From an uncultured Bacilli bacterium (lineage in GTDB: Bacteria > Bacillota_I > Bacilli_A > RFN20 > CAG-826), in assembly GCA_905236715.1 (NCBI GenBank), contig CAJOMQ010000014.1, positions 1 to 51,315 on the forward strand: DNA of 51,315 nucleotides, in the 5' to 3' direction. Shown here piece after piece: positions 1,757-13,308 of this stretch. Each line of letters starts with the position of its first letter. Position 1 is the stretch's first letter. Made by a program: the position numbers and the translations under genes. The notes beneath the pieces are model-generated. The model ran no database searches. It was not told the DNA's origin and saw only the letters and a program-made list of their open reading frames with translations.

Positions 1757-4498
1757 TTATTTTTTCTTATTTTTGATAGCGAAAACTAAAGCCACGATTT
1801 CATGTACCACAAGTGGTAAGATAGCTAAAGCAAAGACAATAAGCCATTGTGTCACGTTTAAAGCGGAACACTTAAAGAAGGTATTAACTCCCGGTACCGC
1901 GACCACAAAGACTTGTAAGGAAACACCAAGTCCAAAAGCTAACCAAAGTAGCCAGTTTCTGCTCTTGAAACAATGGATGAAAGATTTTTTAACACTAGTC
2001 ATACCAAGCATATGGAATAATTCCGCGATTGATAAAACACAGAACGCCATAGTTTGGGAAGTAGTTAATATATCGGGATATTCCGCTAAACGGAAAGCTA
2101 TTTCGTTAAGATCAAAAGTCACACTACCCATACCAAATATGGGGGTGTATAAGAAAGCAAATAAAACCGCCAAAGTAATAATTAATCCATAACCAAATGT
2201 TAATAAATAACCACCATGGGAGAATAAAGAATCATGGGGATTGCGGGGTTTTTCATCCATAATACCAGTTTCTTTTTCATCGGCGCCCAACGCCACAGCG
2301 GGTAATGAATCAGTAATTAGATTCACCCATAAAACGTGGATGGCTAATAATGGAGTGGCTAATCCATATTCACTGGTAAATAAAGATAAAATAGCGATGG
2401 CAAACATCGTTAAAACTTCGGCAATATTAGAACTTAATAAGAAGAGGACGGTCTTTTTAATATTGGCAAAAATGCCACGTCCTTCTTCCACGGCTTTTTC
2501 GATAGAAGCAAAATTATCATCGGTTAATACCATATCAGCAGCGCCTTTGGCGACATCAGTCCCCGTGATACCCATAGCAATACCAATATCGGCAGATTTT
2601 AAGCTTGGGGCGTCATTAACACCATCACCAGTCATCGCGGCAATATTTCCATTCGCGCGGATGGCTTTCACAATAGAAACTTTATTTTCGGGAGAAACAC
2701 GGGCAAAAACACGTACTGTTTTTACGGCTTCTTGTAATTCTTCAAAAGATAATTTATCGATTTCCTCACCAGATATCGCTTGGGAAATATCTTCCGCAAT
2801 ACCTAATGATTTAGCAATAGCTAAAGCGGTTGTTTTATGATCACCAGTAATCATAATGGTAGTAATACCCGCTTTTTTGAAGATATAAACCGCATTAGCG
2901 GCTTCAGGTCTCGCTGGGTCAATCATGCCTACTAAACCGACAAATATGAGATTTTCTTCACTCAATTCATCACTTTCTTTATAAGCGAGTCCTAATACTC
3001 TTAAAGCTTCCACCGCCATAGCGTCAGAGGCCGCCATAATATTTTCTTTATCTTTTTCATTTAATGGACATATTTTTCCATTAATGAGAATTTTATCTGC
3101 GCATTTTAATATGGAATCAATCGCACCTTTGGTAAATATCACATATTTATCTTGGCTTTGATGCTTGGTTGACATCATTTTACGAACTGAATCAAAAGGA
3201 TATTCATCAACACGTGGATATTCATTTTCTAAATCTTTTTTGTGTTTTCCTAATTTATTAGCAAATTCCACTAAAGCGATTTCGGTGGGATCGCCATATA
3301 ATCCTTCATCAACGGAAGCGTTAGAACATAAAGAAAGACCAGAAGCTAGGAATGTACAAGATCCATTATTTAAATTATCTTGGTCCACCATTTGCTCATT
3401 TAAATAAGCTTTTACCACGGTCATCTTATTTTGTGTTAATGTGCCTGTTTTATCAGAACAAACCACACTAACAGCACCTAAAGTTTCTACCGAAGGTAAT
3501 TTTCTTACGATCGTATTGGCTTTGACCATTTTTTGCACACCAAGGGCCAAAACAATGGTAACCACAGCAGGTAATCCTTCCGGAACAGCGGCCACTGCTA
3601 AAGAAATAGCAAACATGAAGTCTTCCACTATGACATCTAATGGAGCGCTATTCACATGTTGTTGATGGATAACAAATGAATCTAATAATTGAATACCTAA
3701 AATGAGAACGACGATAATGATAGTTAATAAACCTAAAAATTTCGATAATTTGGCCAATTGTTTTTGTAATGGGGTGGTTTCATCTTCATTAGAAGAAAGC
3801 ATCTTAGCAATCTTGCCGGTTTCAGTTTTCATACCGGTATATACCACTACTCCTTCACCACGACCATAAACAACGGGAGTGGAAGAATAAGCCATATTAA
3901 TACGATCACCAACACCCACTTCATCACTAAAGACAATATTAGCGTCTTTTTCTACTGGTAAAGATTCACCAGTTAAAGAAGATTCGTCGGTTTTTAAATT
4001 AATAGAAGAAATTAATCTTAAATCAGCAGGAACCGTTCTTCCTTCTTCAAGAATAACAACATCGCCTGGCACTAATTCTTCCGCTTTTAATTCAATTAAT
4101 TGACCATCTCTTTTCACAATACATGTTGGGGATGATAATTTTTTTAATGCCTCTAGAGATTTTTCAGATTTATTTTCTTGAACAGTAGAAATAACTGCAT
4201 TCAAGATGACCACACCCATAATAATAATGGGATCCGCAAAATCAAATTTATCACCATTGACTAAGGTGTTATATAAAGATACACCAATGCTTAATACGGC
4301 AGCGGCTAATAAGATAAAAATCATCGGGTCATTAAAATTAGATAAAAAGACGAGAATAAGAGGCTTCTTCTTTTTCTCTTCTAATTTATTAAGACCATAT
4401 TTGAGCATTCTTTCACCCGCTTCTTGGGTGGAAAGACCTTGCTCTGGATTCACATTTAATTCTTCGCAGGTAGTAGCGTAAGATTTTGTTTCATACAT
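1757..4498 (-). CDS. Type II (P2A) cation-transporting P-type ATPase, probable Mn2+/Ca2+ exporter
   Basis: A 913-residue P-type ATPase. Visible landmarks in order are the N-terminal cation ATPase domain, the actuator TGES loop (LTGESLP), the M4 ion-site motif PEGLP, the phosphorylation site DKTGTLTQNK, the KGA nucleotide-site motif, the hinge MTGDGVNDAP, and M5/M6 ligand segments SSNIAEV and NLITDSLPAVALG. The Asn/Glu and Asn/Thr/Asp pattern in M5/M6 matches Ca2+ or Mn2+ pumps such as SERCA, LMCA1 and YoaB. The leader looks like a yybP-ykoY manganese riboswitch, so Mn2+ export or homeostasis is the best inference. Strong Shine-Dalgarno AAAGGAG lies about 9 nt before the ATG. The nearest promoter lies upstream of tRNA-Leu, so the two are probably cotranscribed. 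Confidence 0.9.
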   Translation of the reverse strand: MYETKSYATTCEELNVNPEQGLSTQEAGERMLKYGLNKLEEKKKKPLILVFLSNFNDPMIFILLAAAVLSIGVSLYNTLVNGDKFDFADPIIIMGVVILNAVISTVQENKSEKSLEALKKLSSPTCIVKRDGQLIELKAEELVPGDVVILEEGRTVPADLRLISSINLKTDESSLTGESLPVEKDANIVFSDEVGVGDRINMAYSSTPVVYGRGEGVVVYTGMKTETGKIAKMLSSNEDETTPLQKQLAKLSKFLGLLTIIIVVLILGIQLLDSFVIHQQHVNSAPLDVIVEDFMFAISLAVAAVPEGLPAVVTIVLALGVQKMVKANTIVRKLPSVETLGAVSVVCSDKTGTLTQNKMTVVKAYLNEQMVDQDNLNNGSCTFLASGLSLCSNASVDEGLYGDPTEIALVEFANKLGKHKKDLENEYPRVDEYPFDSVRKMMSTKHQSQDKYVIFTKGAIDSILKCADKILINGKICPLNEKDKENIMAASDAMAVEALRVLGLAYKESDELSEENLIFVGLVGMIDPARPEAANAVYIFKKAGITTIMITGDHKTTALAIAKSLGIAEDISQAISGEEIDKLSFEELQEAVKTVRVFARVSPENKVSIVKAIRANGNIAAMTGDGVNDAPSLKSADIGIAMGITGTDVAKGAADMVLTDDNFASIEKAVEEGRGIFANIKKTVLFLLSSNIAEVLTMFAIAILSLFTSEYGLATPLLAIHVLWVNLITDSLPAVALGADEKETGIMDEKPRNPHDSLFSHGGYLLTFGYGLIITLAVLFAFLYTPIFGMGSVTFDLNEIAFRLAEYPDILTTSQTMAFCVLSIAELFHMLGMTSVKKSFIHCFKSRNWLLWLAFGLGVSLQVFVVAVPGVNTFFKCSALNVTQWLIVFALAILPLVVHEIVALVFAIKNKKK

Positions 4499-4518
4499 AA
4501 TAGATGACTCCTTTGATA

Positions 4519-4608
4519 TGAAGAATCGTCTTGCTCATTTTCATGGTTATGCTCCGGATGGAATCCATCGTGTTGACGAATGCATAACTTCGCTACTCCC
4601 GAATACTT
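4519..4608 (-). promoter_or_regulatory. yybP-ykoY (manganese) riboswitch candidate upstream of the P-type ATPase
   Basis: The minus-strand leader carries hallmark segments of the yybP-ykoY family: GGGAGTAGC (4592-4600), the loop CGTCAACACG (4569-4578), a short hairpin GATGG/CCATC (4557-4569) followed by CGG, and the closing segment AGCAAGAC (4528-4535). A perfect 7-bp helix GTTATGC/GCATAAC (4582-4588 with 4546-4552) encloses the hairpin. From memory, the layout resembles the Lactococcus yoaB aptamer. Known members sense Mn2+ and often control P-type ATPases. No terminator is visible before the ATPase start, so control is probably translational, or by another route I cannot see. Confidence 0.75.
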
Positions 4609-4614
4609 ATTTAA

Positions 4615-4701
4615 TGGTGCCCGAGGCCGGAATCGAACCGGCACGGTATCGCTACCGCTGGATTTTGAGTCCAGTGCGTCTACCAGTTTCACCACTCGGG
4701 C
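4615..4701 (-). tRNA. tRNA-Leu (anticodon CAA)
   Basis: Class II tRNA with acceptor GCCCGAG/CTCGGGC, a leucine-type D arm (GTGGTGAAACTGGTAGAC), anticodon loop CTCAAAA giving anticodon CAA (reads UUG), a long variable arm, T loop TTCGATT, and an encoded CCA at 4615-4617. It has its own promoter. Its 3' end lies about 7 nt before the manganese riboswitch of the ATPase, with no room for a promoter between them. Confidence 0.97.
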
Positions 4702-4710
4702 CTATTGCTT

Positions 4711-4738
4711 ATTATATATAAGGATAGAGAATTTGCAA
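4711..4738 (-). promoter_or_regulatory. Promoter for tRNA-Leu and, by inference, the ATPase unit
   Basis: Minus strand: -35 TTGCAA (4733-4738), 16-nt spacer, perfect -10 TATAAT (4711-4716), then 9 nt to the mature tRNA 5' end. No other promoter is visible before the ATPase gene. Confidence 0.65.
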
Positions 4739-4770
4739 CAAAAAAAGCCCTCACCGATTGGTGAAGGCTA
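4739..4770 (-). terminator. Intrinsic terminator of htpG
   Basis: Minus strand: stem AGCCTTCACC, loop AATC, stem GGTGAGGGCT, then a run of seven or more T. It lies about 15 nt after the htpG stop codon. Confidence 0.9.
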
Positions 4771-4784
4771 AGAGAAAGGAGAGG

Positions 4785-6680
4785 TTATTTGTAAGCTTTA
4801 ATTAATAAGTCATTAAGTTTTTGAATAAAGGCTTTTTTATCGCTGATTTCACGACCCTCTAATAGCATCGCCTCATCATATAATAATGATGCATATTCTT
4901 TAATCAAATCATCGTCGTCTTTCTTTGTGGACAAAGCATTAAATAATTCGTGATTAGGATTTAATTCCAAGACTTTTGTGGCTTTAATTTCTTCGCTATT
5001 TTCTAATGATTCTTCTTGTAAAGTCTTTTCCATTTCTAGAGACATACCACCTTTAGTAGATAAACAAACAGGAGCATCCACTAATTTGGTGGAAATAATA
5101 ACATCATCAACTTGTCCTTTTAATTCATCTTTAATGGTATCAAGCAGGCGTTTGTTATCGGTGGTAATAACGTCAATCTTTTCTTGTTCTTCTTTACTCA
5201 CTTCATGGGCCGATTCATCGGAAATTAATTTGAATTCCACTTCCTTATAATCGTGCATCATCATAATAGCGAATTCATCGACCTTCTTATCAAATAATAA
5301 GACATCAATATCATCTTTTTTGTATTTCTCTATTTGCGGTAATAATTTAATCGCATCTAGATTTTCCCCAGACACATAATAGATGAATTTTTGATCTTTC
5401 TTCATGTTGTCCTTATAGACATCTAAAGAAATGTATTTATCATCATTTTTTAAAGAATGGAAAATCAATAGAGACGCTAATTTGTCTTTATTAAATCCAT
5501 AGGAAGAATAGATACCATATTTAATGATTTCACCGAAGGATTGCCAGAATTTTTCATATTTTGGCATATCGTTAACTTTGGTTTCTTCTAATTTAGCGAG
5601 AATTTTCTTTTCGATATTTTCCGATATCTTTTTCAAGATAGGTGATTGTTGCAATAATTCACGAGAAACATTCAAATTGAAGTCATCGGAATCGACAAGA
5701 CCTTTCGTGAATTTCAAATAATCCGGTAATAATTCAGGGCATTTATCTTTGATGAAAATGCCACGTGAATATAACGTTAATCCCTTTTCAAAGCTATCAC
5801 TGTATAAATCATATGGGGCGTGAGATGGAATGAATAATAAGGCATTATAGGAAACCTTACCATCCACTTTGATAAATAGTGATAATAAAGGATCTTCATA
5901 ATCACCATATGTCCGTTTATAGAATTCATTTAATTCTTCTTCGCTGACATCTTTGCGGTTCTTTTTCCAAATTGGAGTCATGGAATTAAGGGTCTCAATT
6001 TCTTTATATTCCACTTCTTTTTCGTTTTCCGTTTTATATTTGGTAACTTCCATTTTGATCGGATAACGGACATAGTCACTATATTTTTTCACCAAATCTT
6101 TTAATTCATATTCACTTAAATATTTGTCATAGTCGGTTTCTTTGCTCTTCTTTTTCAAATGGAGAGTGATGGTTGTACCGACATCTTCCTTCTCTGCTTC
6201 TTCAATGGTAAAGGAATCTTCACCACTACTGGAGAATAAATAAGCGGGGCTATCGACAGTTTTAGTTAAAACTTCAACTTCATTAGCTACCATAAAAGCG
6301 CTATAAAATCCAACACCGAATTGTCCAATAATGTTCAAGTCTTGTTTTTCTTTCGCTTCTTTTAATTTAGCCACAAAATCCTTTGATCCACTTTTGGCAA
6401 TAGTGCCTAAATTATTGACCAAATCTTCTTTTGACATACCAATGCCATTATCTTGGATGGTAATAGTACGTTTTTTCTTATCAAAGGATAGGAAGATTTC
6501 TCCATCTCTAAGAGGATATTTACCTTCACTAGAAACAGAAAGATAACGATATTTATCAATCGCATCACTAGCATTTGAGATTAATTCTCTTAAGAAAATC
6601 TCTTGATTGCTATAAATGGAATTAATCATTAAGGATAATAATTCTTTTGATTCCGCTTGAAATTGTAATACTTCTTTCAT
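4785..6680 (-). CDS. htpG: Molecular chaperone HtpG (Hsp90)
   Basis: Bacterial Hsp90, about 631 residues from the preferred start. The N-terminal GHKL ATPase domain shows FLRELISNASDA (the conserved Glu and Asn), DNGIGM and IGQFGVGFYSAF. The middle client/ATPase domain contains the catalytic-arginine segment NVSRELLQ, and a C-terminal dimerisation domain follows. The open reading frame extends 9 codons upstream to 6707, but that would start inside the operator. The ATG at 6680 has a good Shine-Dalgarno (GAAAGAGG) and matches the family start MKEVLQFQAE. It is monocistronic, with its own terminator. Two CIRCE operators imply HrcA repression and heat induction; in B. subtilis htpG is not CIRCE-controlled. 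Confidence 0.97.
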   Translation of the reverse strand: MKEVLQFQAESKELLSLMINSIYSNQEIFLRELISNASDAIDKYRYLSVSSEGKYPLRDGEIFLSFDKKKRTITIQDNGIGMSKEDLVNNLGTIAKSGSKDFVAKLKEAKEKQDLNIIGQFGVGFYSAFMVANEVEVLTKTVDSPAYLFSSSGEDSFTIEEAEKEDVGTTITLHLKKKSKETDYDKYLSEYELKDLVKKYSDYVRYPIKMEVTKYKTENEKEVEYKEIETLNSMTPIWKKNRKDVSEEELNEFYKRTYGDYEDPLLSLFIKVDGKVSYNALLFIPSHAPYDLYSDSFEKGLTLYSRGIFIKDKCPELLPDYLKFTKGLVDSDDFNLNVSRELLQQSPILKKISENIEKKILAKLEETKVNDMPKYEKFWQSFGEIIKYGIYSSYGFNKDKLASLLIFHSLKNDDKYISLDVYKDNMKKDQKFIYYVSGENLDAIKLLPQIEKYKKDDIDVLLFDKKVDEFAIMMMHDYKEVEFKLISDESAHEVSKEEQEKIDVITTDNKRLLDTIKDELKGQVDDVIISTKLVDAPVCLSTKGGMSLEMEKTLQEESLENSEEIKATKVLELNPNHELFNALSTKKDDDDLIKEYASLLYDEAMLLEGREISDKKAFIQKLNDLLIKAYK

Positions 6681-12647: not shown

Positions 12648-13202
12648 TTATAAACCAAAAATGCCTTTCTTGATTCTTTCCACTACTTCCTCACCTAAAT
12701 GATGTTTGACAATTGCTAAAGCAAAATCTAAAGTATAACCCATGGATTTACCAGTGACATTCATTGGAGAATTAACAACATTTTCATCTTTTTGATAAGA
12801 AGGCCCATTATCTAATTGTTCAAAGCCAGGAAAACAAATATAAGGATTATTTTTATCGATAGCTTTTAATCTATATAAAATAGGTGGCGCAGCGCATATC
12901 GCGTGTATGCATTTTTGATGATCAGAAAAATACTTAATGGTTTCTTTAACTAAAGATGATTCTTCGAGATTTTTAACACCAAGTTTTCCGCCTGGCAAAA
13001 CCAAAAAAGTAAAATCGTCTAATGTTGCATCTTTCAAAAGAATATTTGATTTGATCAATACACCATGGCTTGATTTAACAAATAAATCATCGTTAATTGA
13101 CGCTAAGACGACATCTATTTCTCCGGTGCGTGATAAAACATCAAAAGTCTGAATGGCTTCTGTTTCTTCAAATCCTTCCGCTAATAAGATGAGTGCTTTC
13201 AT
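12648..13202 (-). CDS. DJ-1/PfpI family protein
   Basis: A 184-residue single-domain protein of the DJ-1/YajL branch. It begins MKALILLAEGFEETEA, which contains the conserved Glu near residue 14-17. The nucleophile elbow is HAICAAPPIL, with the reactive Cys near residue 103. The family's glycine-rich loop is LPGGKLG. Members act as redox-sensitive stress proteins or deglycase/glyoxalase-like enzymes; which applies cannot be told from sequence. No Shine-Dalgarno is visible. The gene lies between tRNA-Leu(CAG) and tRNA-Arg(CCG), so its mRNA ends are probably produced by tRNA processing. Confidence 0.88.
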   Translation of the reverse strand: MKALILLAEGFEETEAIQTFDVLSRTGEIDVVLASINDDLFVKSSHGVLIKSNILLKDATLDDFTFLVLPGGKLGVKNLEESSLVKETIKYFSDHQKCIHAICAAPPILYRLKAIDKNNPYICFPGFEQLDNGPSYQKDENVVNSPMNVTGKSMGYTLDFALAIVKHHLGEEVVERIKKGIFGL

Positions 13203-13223
13203 AATTAATAATTTTCACAAAAT

Positions 13224-13308
13224 TGGTGCAGCCAGCAGGAGTCGAACCTGTATGAGTTGCCTCACTAGAACCTGAATCTAGCGCGTCTACCAGTTCCGCC
13301 ATGGCTGC
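13224..13308 (-). tRNA. tRNA-Leu (anticodon CAG)
   Basis: Class II tRNA: acceptor GCAGCCA/TGGCTGC, leucine-type D arm with GG at 18-19, anticodon loop TTCAGGT (CAG, reads CUG), long variable arm, T loop TTCGACT, encoded CCA (13224-13226). Its 5' end lies 2 nt after the stop codon of the nucleotidase gene and its 3' end about 20 nt before the DJ-1 start. Confidence 0.97.

Follow-up and report, generated by a model that had tools for sequence, protein, structure and literature searches.

The gene for a P-type cation-transporting ATPase in an uncultured Bacilli bacterium is preceded by a structured leader that almost touches a tRNA gene, raising the question of whether tRNA and ATPase mRNA share one transcript and what the leader between them would sense. 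Here we analysed the locus in a stretch of 51,315 nt (the window) from a draft genome of about 94% completeness. The junction between tRNA and leader is real and exceeds chance, and it places a known riboswitch class in an unusual but recurring setting. We propose a model that combines a transcript started at the tRNA promoter, an Mn2+ riboswitch, a translational ON switch and an origin by loss of the intervening terminator and promoter, and we regard this model as a whole as highly probable on the sequence evidence set out below.

Anatomy of the locus

The initial annotation had placed a tRNA-Leu(CAA), a manganese-sensing leader and the ATPase gene side by side, and ARAGORN, the Rfam tRNA model and a covariance model of the leader (R1, described below) agreed with it on both the coordinates and the adjacency. 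On the minus strand, the unit is ordered as HSP90 terminator, tRNA promoter, tRNA-Leu(CAA), TTAA, leader, Shine–Dalgarno (SD) sequence and P2-type ATPase, with the following features:

4746–4769, minus strand: intrinsic terminator of the upstream HSP90 gene (10-bp stem with 6 G-C pairs, then TTTTTTGTTG)
4711–4738, minus strand: sigma-70-type tRNA promoter TTGCAA-16-TATAAT (promoter scan)
4615–4701, minus strand: tRNA-Leu(CAA) with encoded CCA, ending at 4615 (ARAGORN; Rfam tRNA, 55.1 bits)
4611–4614, minus strand: linker TTAA from CCA to aptamer (direct reading)
4519–4610, minus strand: predicted Mn2+ riboswitch aptamer of the yybP-ykoY type, three-way junction form (93.7 bits with model R1)
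4601–4606, minus strand: 5′ strand of P1, the putative switch helix, pairing weakly with 4527–4522 (3 of 5 scored pairs)
4593–4600, minus strand: L1 block GGGAGUAG, (nearly) invariant in 70 leaders
4546–4588, minus strand: P3 leg carrying the L3 loop CGUCAACAC; by homology, A4574 corresponds to the Mn2+-contacting adenosine
4536–4545, minus strand: P4 hairpin CAUGAAAAUG (alignment of leaders)
4528–4533, minus strand: 3′ block of L1, CAAGAC (conservation in leaders)
4503–4530, minus strand: predicted expression platform; the 3′ strand of P1 (4527–4521) here forms a hairpin with the SD region (4512–4506)
4508–4514, minus strand: SD sequence AAAGGAG (direct reading)
1757–4498, minus strand: P2-type (PMR1/SERCA-like) cation-transporting ATPase, 913 aa (Pfam and profile matches)

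The sequence GGGAGTAGC begins at 4600, and the tRNA CCA is separated by 4 nt from the start of the leader model and by 14 nt from its GGGAG block. The HSP90 terminator is predicted to isolate the tRNA unit from transcription upstream. Weak Rfam matches to tsr26 and Ref84 at 4725–4845, far below their cut-offs, overlie this terminator and were discarded.

The window holds a second contact between a tRNA gene and protein-coding genes (12648–13308, minus strand). There, a 498-aa frame stops 2 nt before tRNA-Leu(CAG) (13308–13224), and a 184-aa frame resembling a DJ-1/PfpI protein starts 21 nt after the tRNA. With no terminator seen there, this tRNA appears to be part of an operon.

The leader is a yybP-ykoY class riboswitch

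From its conserved blocks, the leader had been taken for a yybP-ykoY Mn2+ riboswitch, with a scan by the Rfam covariance model proposed as the check. That model (RF00080, 177 positions) gave no match by gathering score and E-value in the window or its genome, and none of the 146 family genomes passed its cut-off; this failure says little, because the same cmscan also misses, at E ≤ 1, the leader of E. coli alx, a validated member of the class. The gathering threshold is a curation cut-off and not a biological feature.

Two models were built from the leaders themselves. Model R1 derives from sister-genome leaders, which show compensatory changes in three stems and for which RNAalifold alone gives essentially the same fold, and model R2 from 70 sequences of the same clade only. 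The R1 element occurs in 70 of 146 family genomes, nearly always just upstream of a P-type ATPase, and the R2 element in 160 of the 279 genomes of the order. In the alignment of 70 leaders (A4), 90.1% of cells are paired and both partners have changed in 22 of 25 pairs; its covariation score was 0.665 against 0.189 for shuffles and at most 0.115 for slid controls, a score somewhat favoured by the fitting of the 70-row alignment to the structure.

R2 also recovered the leaders of E. coli alx (31.1 bits, E = 1.6 × 10−6) and E. coli mntP (24.8 bits, E = 1 × 10−4), each directly upstream of its gene. Two adenosines are identical in all 70 leaders: A4574, at the position of the adenosine that crystal structures show in contact with Mn2+ (L. 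lactis A41, X. oryzae A48), and A4597, at that of the A-minor adenosine (A10 in X. oryzae) (PMC6754395). The covarying helices form a multi-way junction closed by P1, which is three-way here, as in the E. coli alx alignment; crystal structures of other members contain a four-way junction (PMC6754395). The leaders precede genes of Mn2+ homeostasis, either mntP or a P-type ATPase, as expected of a class that lies ahead of mntP, TerC or P-type ATPase genes. Because R2 recovers the alx and mntP leaders and the Mn2+-contacting adenosine is invariant, we assign the leader by homology to the yybP-ykoY class, with Mn2+ binding predicted, and the initial identification was thus borne out.

Lack of a P2 hairpin had raised the idea of a new riboswitch class, which was dropped as E. 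coli alx has the same layout. Two further observations concern the models and alignments. RF00080 misses not only the E. coli alx leader (371–503 in locus L210) but essentially all Mn2+ riboswitches of the Bacilli family, and R2 finds them; many Mn2+ riboswitches of uncultured Bacilli and Clostridia thus escape the current Rfam model. Beside the junction, at window 4591 and 4535 (columns 20 and 77 of alignment A3), G20 accompanies A77 and U20 accompanies C77 within the genus, possibly reflecting a non-canonical covarying contact.

The junction recurs with different tRNAs

A search of close relatives for the same junction, suggested by the initial annotation, was productive in this order of Bacilli, and the junction was also present in a clostridial order. 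The pattern comprised a tRNA T-arm, CCA, 2–30 nt and the riboswitch block, with the reversed pattern as control. In the order of the window it was found in 3 of 279 species, belonging to three genera and all with tRNA-Leu(CAA); the control gave 0. Other relatives carry tRNA-Leu(CAA) 95–1,944 nt upstream, and those unfused relatives in which the gap is short have an intrinsic terminator after the tRNA and a −10-like box before the leader (the scan calls a full promoter in L030 only). By this comparison, the fused state would have arisen by loss of the tRNA terminator and the riboswitch promoter, both still present in relatives. On the ATPase tree it needs three changes within Bacilli; one gain followed by losses is a possible alternative history.

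A scan of named genomes produced an apparent flood of junctions. Among the matches listed, however, 104 of 116 loci were tandem tRNAs, with the second gene starting ..GGGAGTAGC, and were rejected; at least 7 had the riboswitch 3′ block after filtering. The same matches included tRNA-Glu(CTC) junctions in Clostridia and a tRNA-Pro(CGG) junction in Luteimonas aestuarii, the latter in the arrangement tRNA-Pro(CGG)-riboswitch-mntP. In the order to which one of the listed Clostridia belongs, the junction was present in 61 of 385 species (control, 0). The tRNA at 50 clostridial loci (46 distinct) was tRNA-Glu(CTC) in 40, tRNA-Trp(CCA) in 8 and not called in 2, and the downstream frame, where read, began with a P-type ATPase-like N-terminus. 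The R2 element was located at the junction in all 47 clostridial loci searched (45 distinct; E from 2 × 10−12 to 4 × 10−7). With four tRNA identities in three classes, separate origins between the classes are very likely, and the clostridial versions would have been reached separately with other tRNAs. Manganese detoxification thus appears to have come under a borrowed tRNA promoter repeatedly, the fusion being seen in unrelated bacteria with no fewer than three further tRNAs.

At one clostridial locus (L108), a 15-bp terminator overlaps the 3′ side of the riboswitch, so that transcription of the tRNA gene would end at the riboswitch; clostridial riboswitches of this kind may accordingly carry their own intrinsic terminator, which doubles as that of the tRNA gene. 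This terminator, at 6187–6223 of L108, is the first one behind the tRNA. A promoter-like site farther downstream (6083–6055) is at chance level.

What the recurrence means is less certain than the anatomy. In one reading, the arrangement is a selected, repeatedly evolved design, in which the tRNA promoter would give steady, growth-linked transcription and the riboswitch would decide what follows the tRNA, acting as an Mn2+-dependent tRNA terminator in Clostridia and as a translational gate in Bacilli. We put this forward tentatively, at a little under even chances; were it true, tRNA maturation and metal sensing would share one RNA. The same anatomy could also be neutral: compact genomes lose intergenic DNA, and tRNA genes, which are frequently located ahead of other genes, would occasionally end against a leader without selection. 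The rarity of fusion in the order (3 of 279 species) is consistent with this view, as are the proximity of tRNA-Leu(CAA) to the ATPase in several relatives and the presence in the window of another gene directly behind tRNA-Leu(CAG). Against it, the junction occurs in 61 of the 385 clostridial-order species with two tRNAs (species that share ancestry and are not independent), a third lineage pairs tRNA-Pro with mntP, and chance placement would amount to about 5 × 10−4 per riboswitch (our own estimate, from 41 tRNAs in 1.29 Mb). We consider a neutral origin a serious candidate, to which we would give about two chances in five.

A predicted translational switch

In the predicted fold of the window leader, the 3′ strand of P1 (4527–4521) can also pair with the SD region (4512–4506), leaving the SD with an unpaired probability of 0.02. 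The aptamer would bind Mn2+ through its conserved L1/L3 core, as homology and covariation suggest, and Mn2+ would stabilise P1 in competition with the SD-hiding hairpin, thereby freeing the SD and turning translation of the exporter on at high Mn2+. We infer such a translational ON switch from the overlapping pairings. Most sister species, and several further genera, share this conflict between P1 and the SD hairpin, although some leaders lack it. Family-wide, the SD-hiding hairpin is modestly better than in shuffled sequences, with 24% of leaders at rank 0.1 or better; it holds only partly as a general rule and was not retained as one.

P1 of the window is weak, with 3 of 5 scored pairs, and switching may be impaired as a result. 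Its riboswitch could on this account be decayed, the joining deletion having damaged P1 and left the ATPase constitutively expressed from the tRNA promoter, and P1 is indeed complete (5 of 5 pairs) in L016, L026, L027 and L030. Yet P1 scores 4 of 5 pairs in the other fused leaders and is even weaker in the unfused L028 (2 of 5), every nearly invariant core position is intact in the window, pairing in P3 and P4 has been kept through compensatory changes, and the SD-hiding hairpin is strong. Decay is therefore unlikely, and we favour a leader that still switches.

A probable single promoter for tRNA and ATPase

The initial annotation had seen a promoter only upstream of the tRNA, and both our scan for sigma-70-type sites and direct reading of the linker led to the same result. 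TTGCAA-16-TATAAT at 4738–4711 is the only minus-strand promoter-like site in 4400–4850, where shuffled sequences have a mean of 0.7 sites on both strands. Neither a promoter nor a terminator was found between tRNA-Leu(CAA) and the leader in the window, the 4-nt linker being too short. By direct reading, the −10 position required for a start at 4609–4614 falls in the GC-rich acceptor arm of the tRNA, CTCGGGCACCA, which is unlike TATAAT. The tRNA and the ATPase gene thus share a strand, and neither a promoter nor a terminator separates them, as in a tRNA-mRNA operon; their co-transcription from the tRNA promoter is strongly supported by the sequence. The ATPase gene would then have no promoter of its own, and the primary transcript would consist of tRNA, Mn2+ riboswitch and ATPase mRNA, in that order.

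It is very improbable that the ATPase mRNA begins just past the tRNA, at a promoter hidden in the tRNA gene or at an unusual kind of promoter, and that two separate units merely touch. The scan was restricted to sigma-70-type sites, and in relatives without an adjoining tRNA the leader is immediately preceded by a −10 box of its own, which makes an independent unit the common state, but the required −10 position is occupied by the acceptor arm, no minus-strand sigma-70-type site was found at the tRNA 3′ end in the window, L033 or L055, and the linker measures 4–25 nt across all junctions.

How the tRNA and the mRNA part is a related question, as the initial annotation had the ATPase mRNA 5′ end made by tRNA 3′ processing. 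All 36 tRNAs read in the genome encode CCA, and no RNase Z over the cut-off of 293 was found in the approximately 94% complete genome; the single match, partial and of 36 bits, lies in a 569-aa frame, which probably encodes a protein of the RNase J kind. The CCA-encoding tRNAs of B. subtilis are nominally matured by 3′ exonucleases and not by RNase Z (PMC10100781). With CCA encoded in every tRNA read and no RNase Z above the cut-off, a classical RNase Z cut at the tRNA 3′ end is unlikely, and separation by cleavage would require another endonuclease acting in the A/U-rich linker. In the scheme we propose, RNase P would free the tRNA 5′ end, and such an endonuclease, followed by exonucleases, would separate tRNA and mRNA. 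Formation of the ATPase mRNA 5′ end by tRNA 3′ processing is, in this form, plausible.

The ATPase as a putative Mn2+ exporter

The ATPase has complete P2-type Pfam domains, scores 668 bits against the PMR1-type model TIGR01522 (below the cut-off of 798) and has the Listeria Ca2+-ATPase lmo0841 as its closest solved relative (610 bits). Motif expressions for M4–M6 had no match in the window ATPase, and its proposed ion specificity comes from context and precedents. The class of the riboswitch, together with the precedents of Streptococcus MgtA and L. lactis, suggests by analogy an exporter of Mn2+ (or Mn2+/Ca2+). In a sister species (G002), mntP, encoding a putative Mn2+ exporter (PF02659), lies between tRNA and leader, which is a further hint of an Mn2+ context; the genome of the window has its mntP at another place, without this leader. 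The row in the sister species (L026, contig C13) reads tRNA-Arg(CCG), tRNA-Leu(CAA), mntP, Mn2+ riboswitch and ATPase, with the two putative Mn2+ exporters adjacent.

Comparison with known systems

The window leader shares with the riboswitches of E. coli alx and mntP, L. lactis yoaB and X. oryzae yebN the L1 blocks GGGGAGUAG ... GC.AGACC, the L3 blocks CGUCA...CG ... CCGG, the Mn2+-contacting adenosine and the kind of target gene. It differs from these RF00080 members in being compact (92 nt, with one three-way junction), in going unscored by RF00080 and in a transcript that would begin with a tRNA.

Mn2+ riboswitches before P-type cation ATPases have precedents in Streptococcus mgtA, reported as an Mn2+/Ca2+ ATPase under a yybP-ykoY riboswitch (PMC11434433), including the Mn-sensing riboswitch of S. 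pneumoniae mgtA (caxP) (Martin et al. 2019, as cited in PMC11434433), and in L. lactis and C. difficile CD2503 (PMC11477304). The window resembles S. pneumoniae mgtA and C. difficile CD2503 in this arrangement. Unlike these two, its leader is apparently translational, without a terminator, and has a tRNA at its head, of which the cited passages make no mention for either gene.

For a tRNA fused to an Mn2+ riboswitch, we found no earlier description in the open-access literature. Operons that join tRNAs and mRNAs are exemplified by thrU-tyrU-glyT-thrT-tufB and metY-nusA of E. coli. A further case is the rplS-tRNA-Arg transcript of S. agalactiae (PMC4448216). Here, too, a tRNA and a protein gene would share one transcript. 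The arrangement offers a way to test how an mRNA 5′ end forms behind a CCA-encoding tRNA in a bacterium with no apparent RNase Z of the classical type, and whether regulated termination of a tRNA gene can be the work of a riboswitch. What sets this locus apart from thrU-tufB, metY-nusA and rplS-tRNA-Arg is a ligand-sensing riboswitch placed directly between the tRNA and the coding region, an arrangement in which a metal riboswitch, apparently promoterless, would depend on a tRNA gene, and which recurs with four tRNA identities in at least three unrelated lineages.
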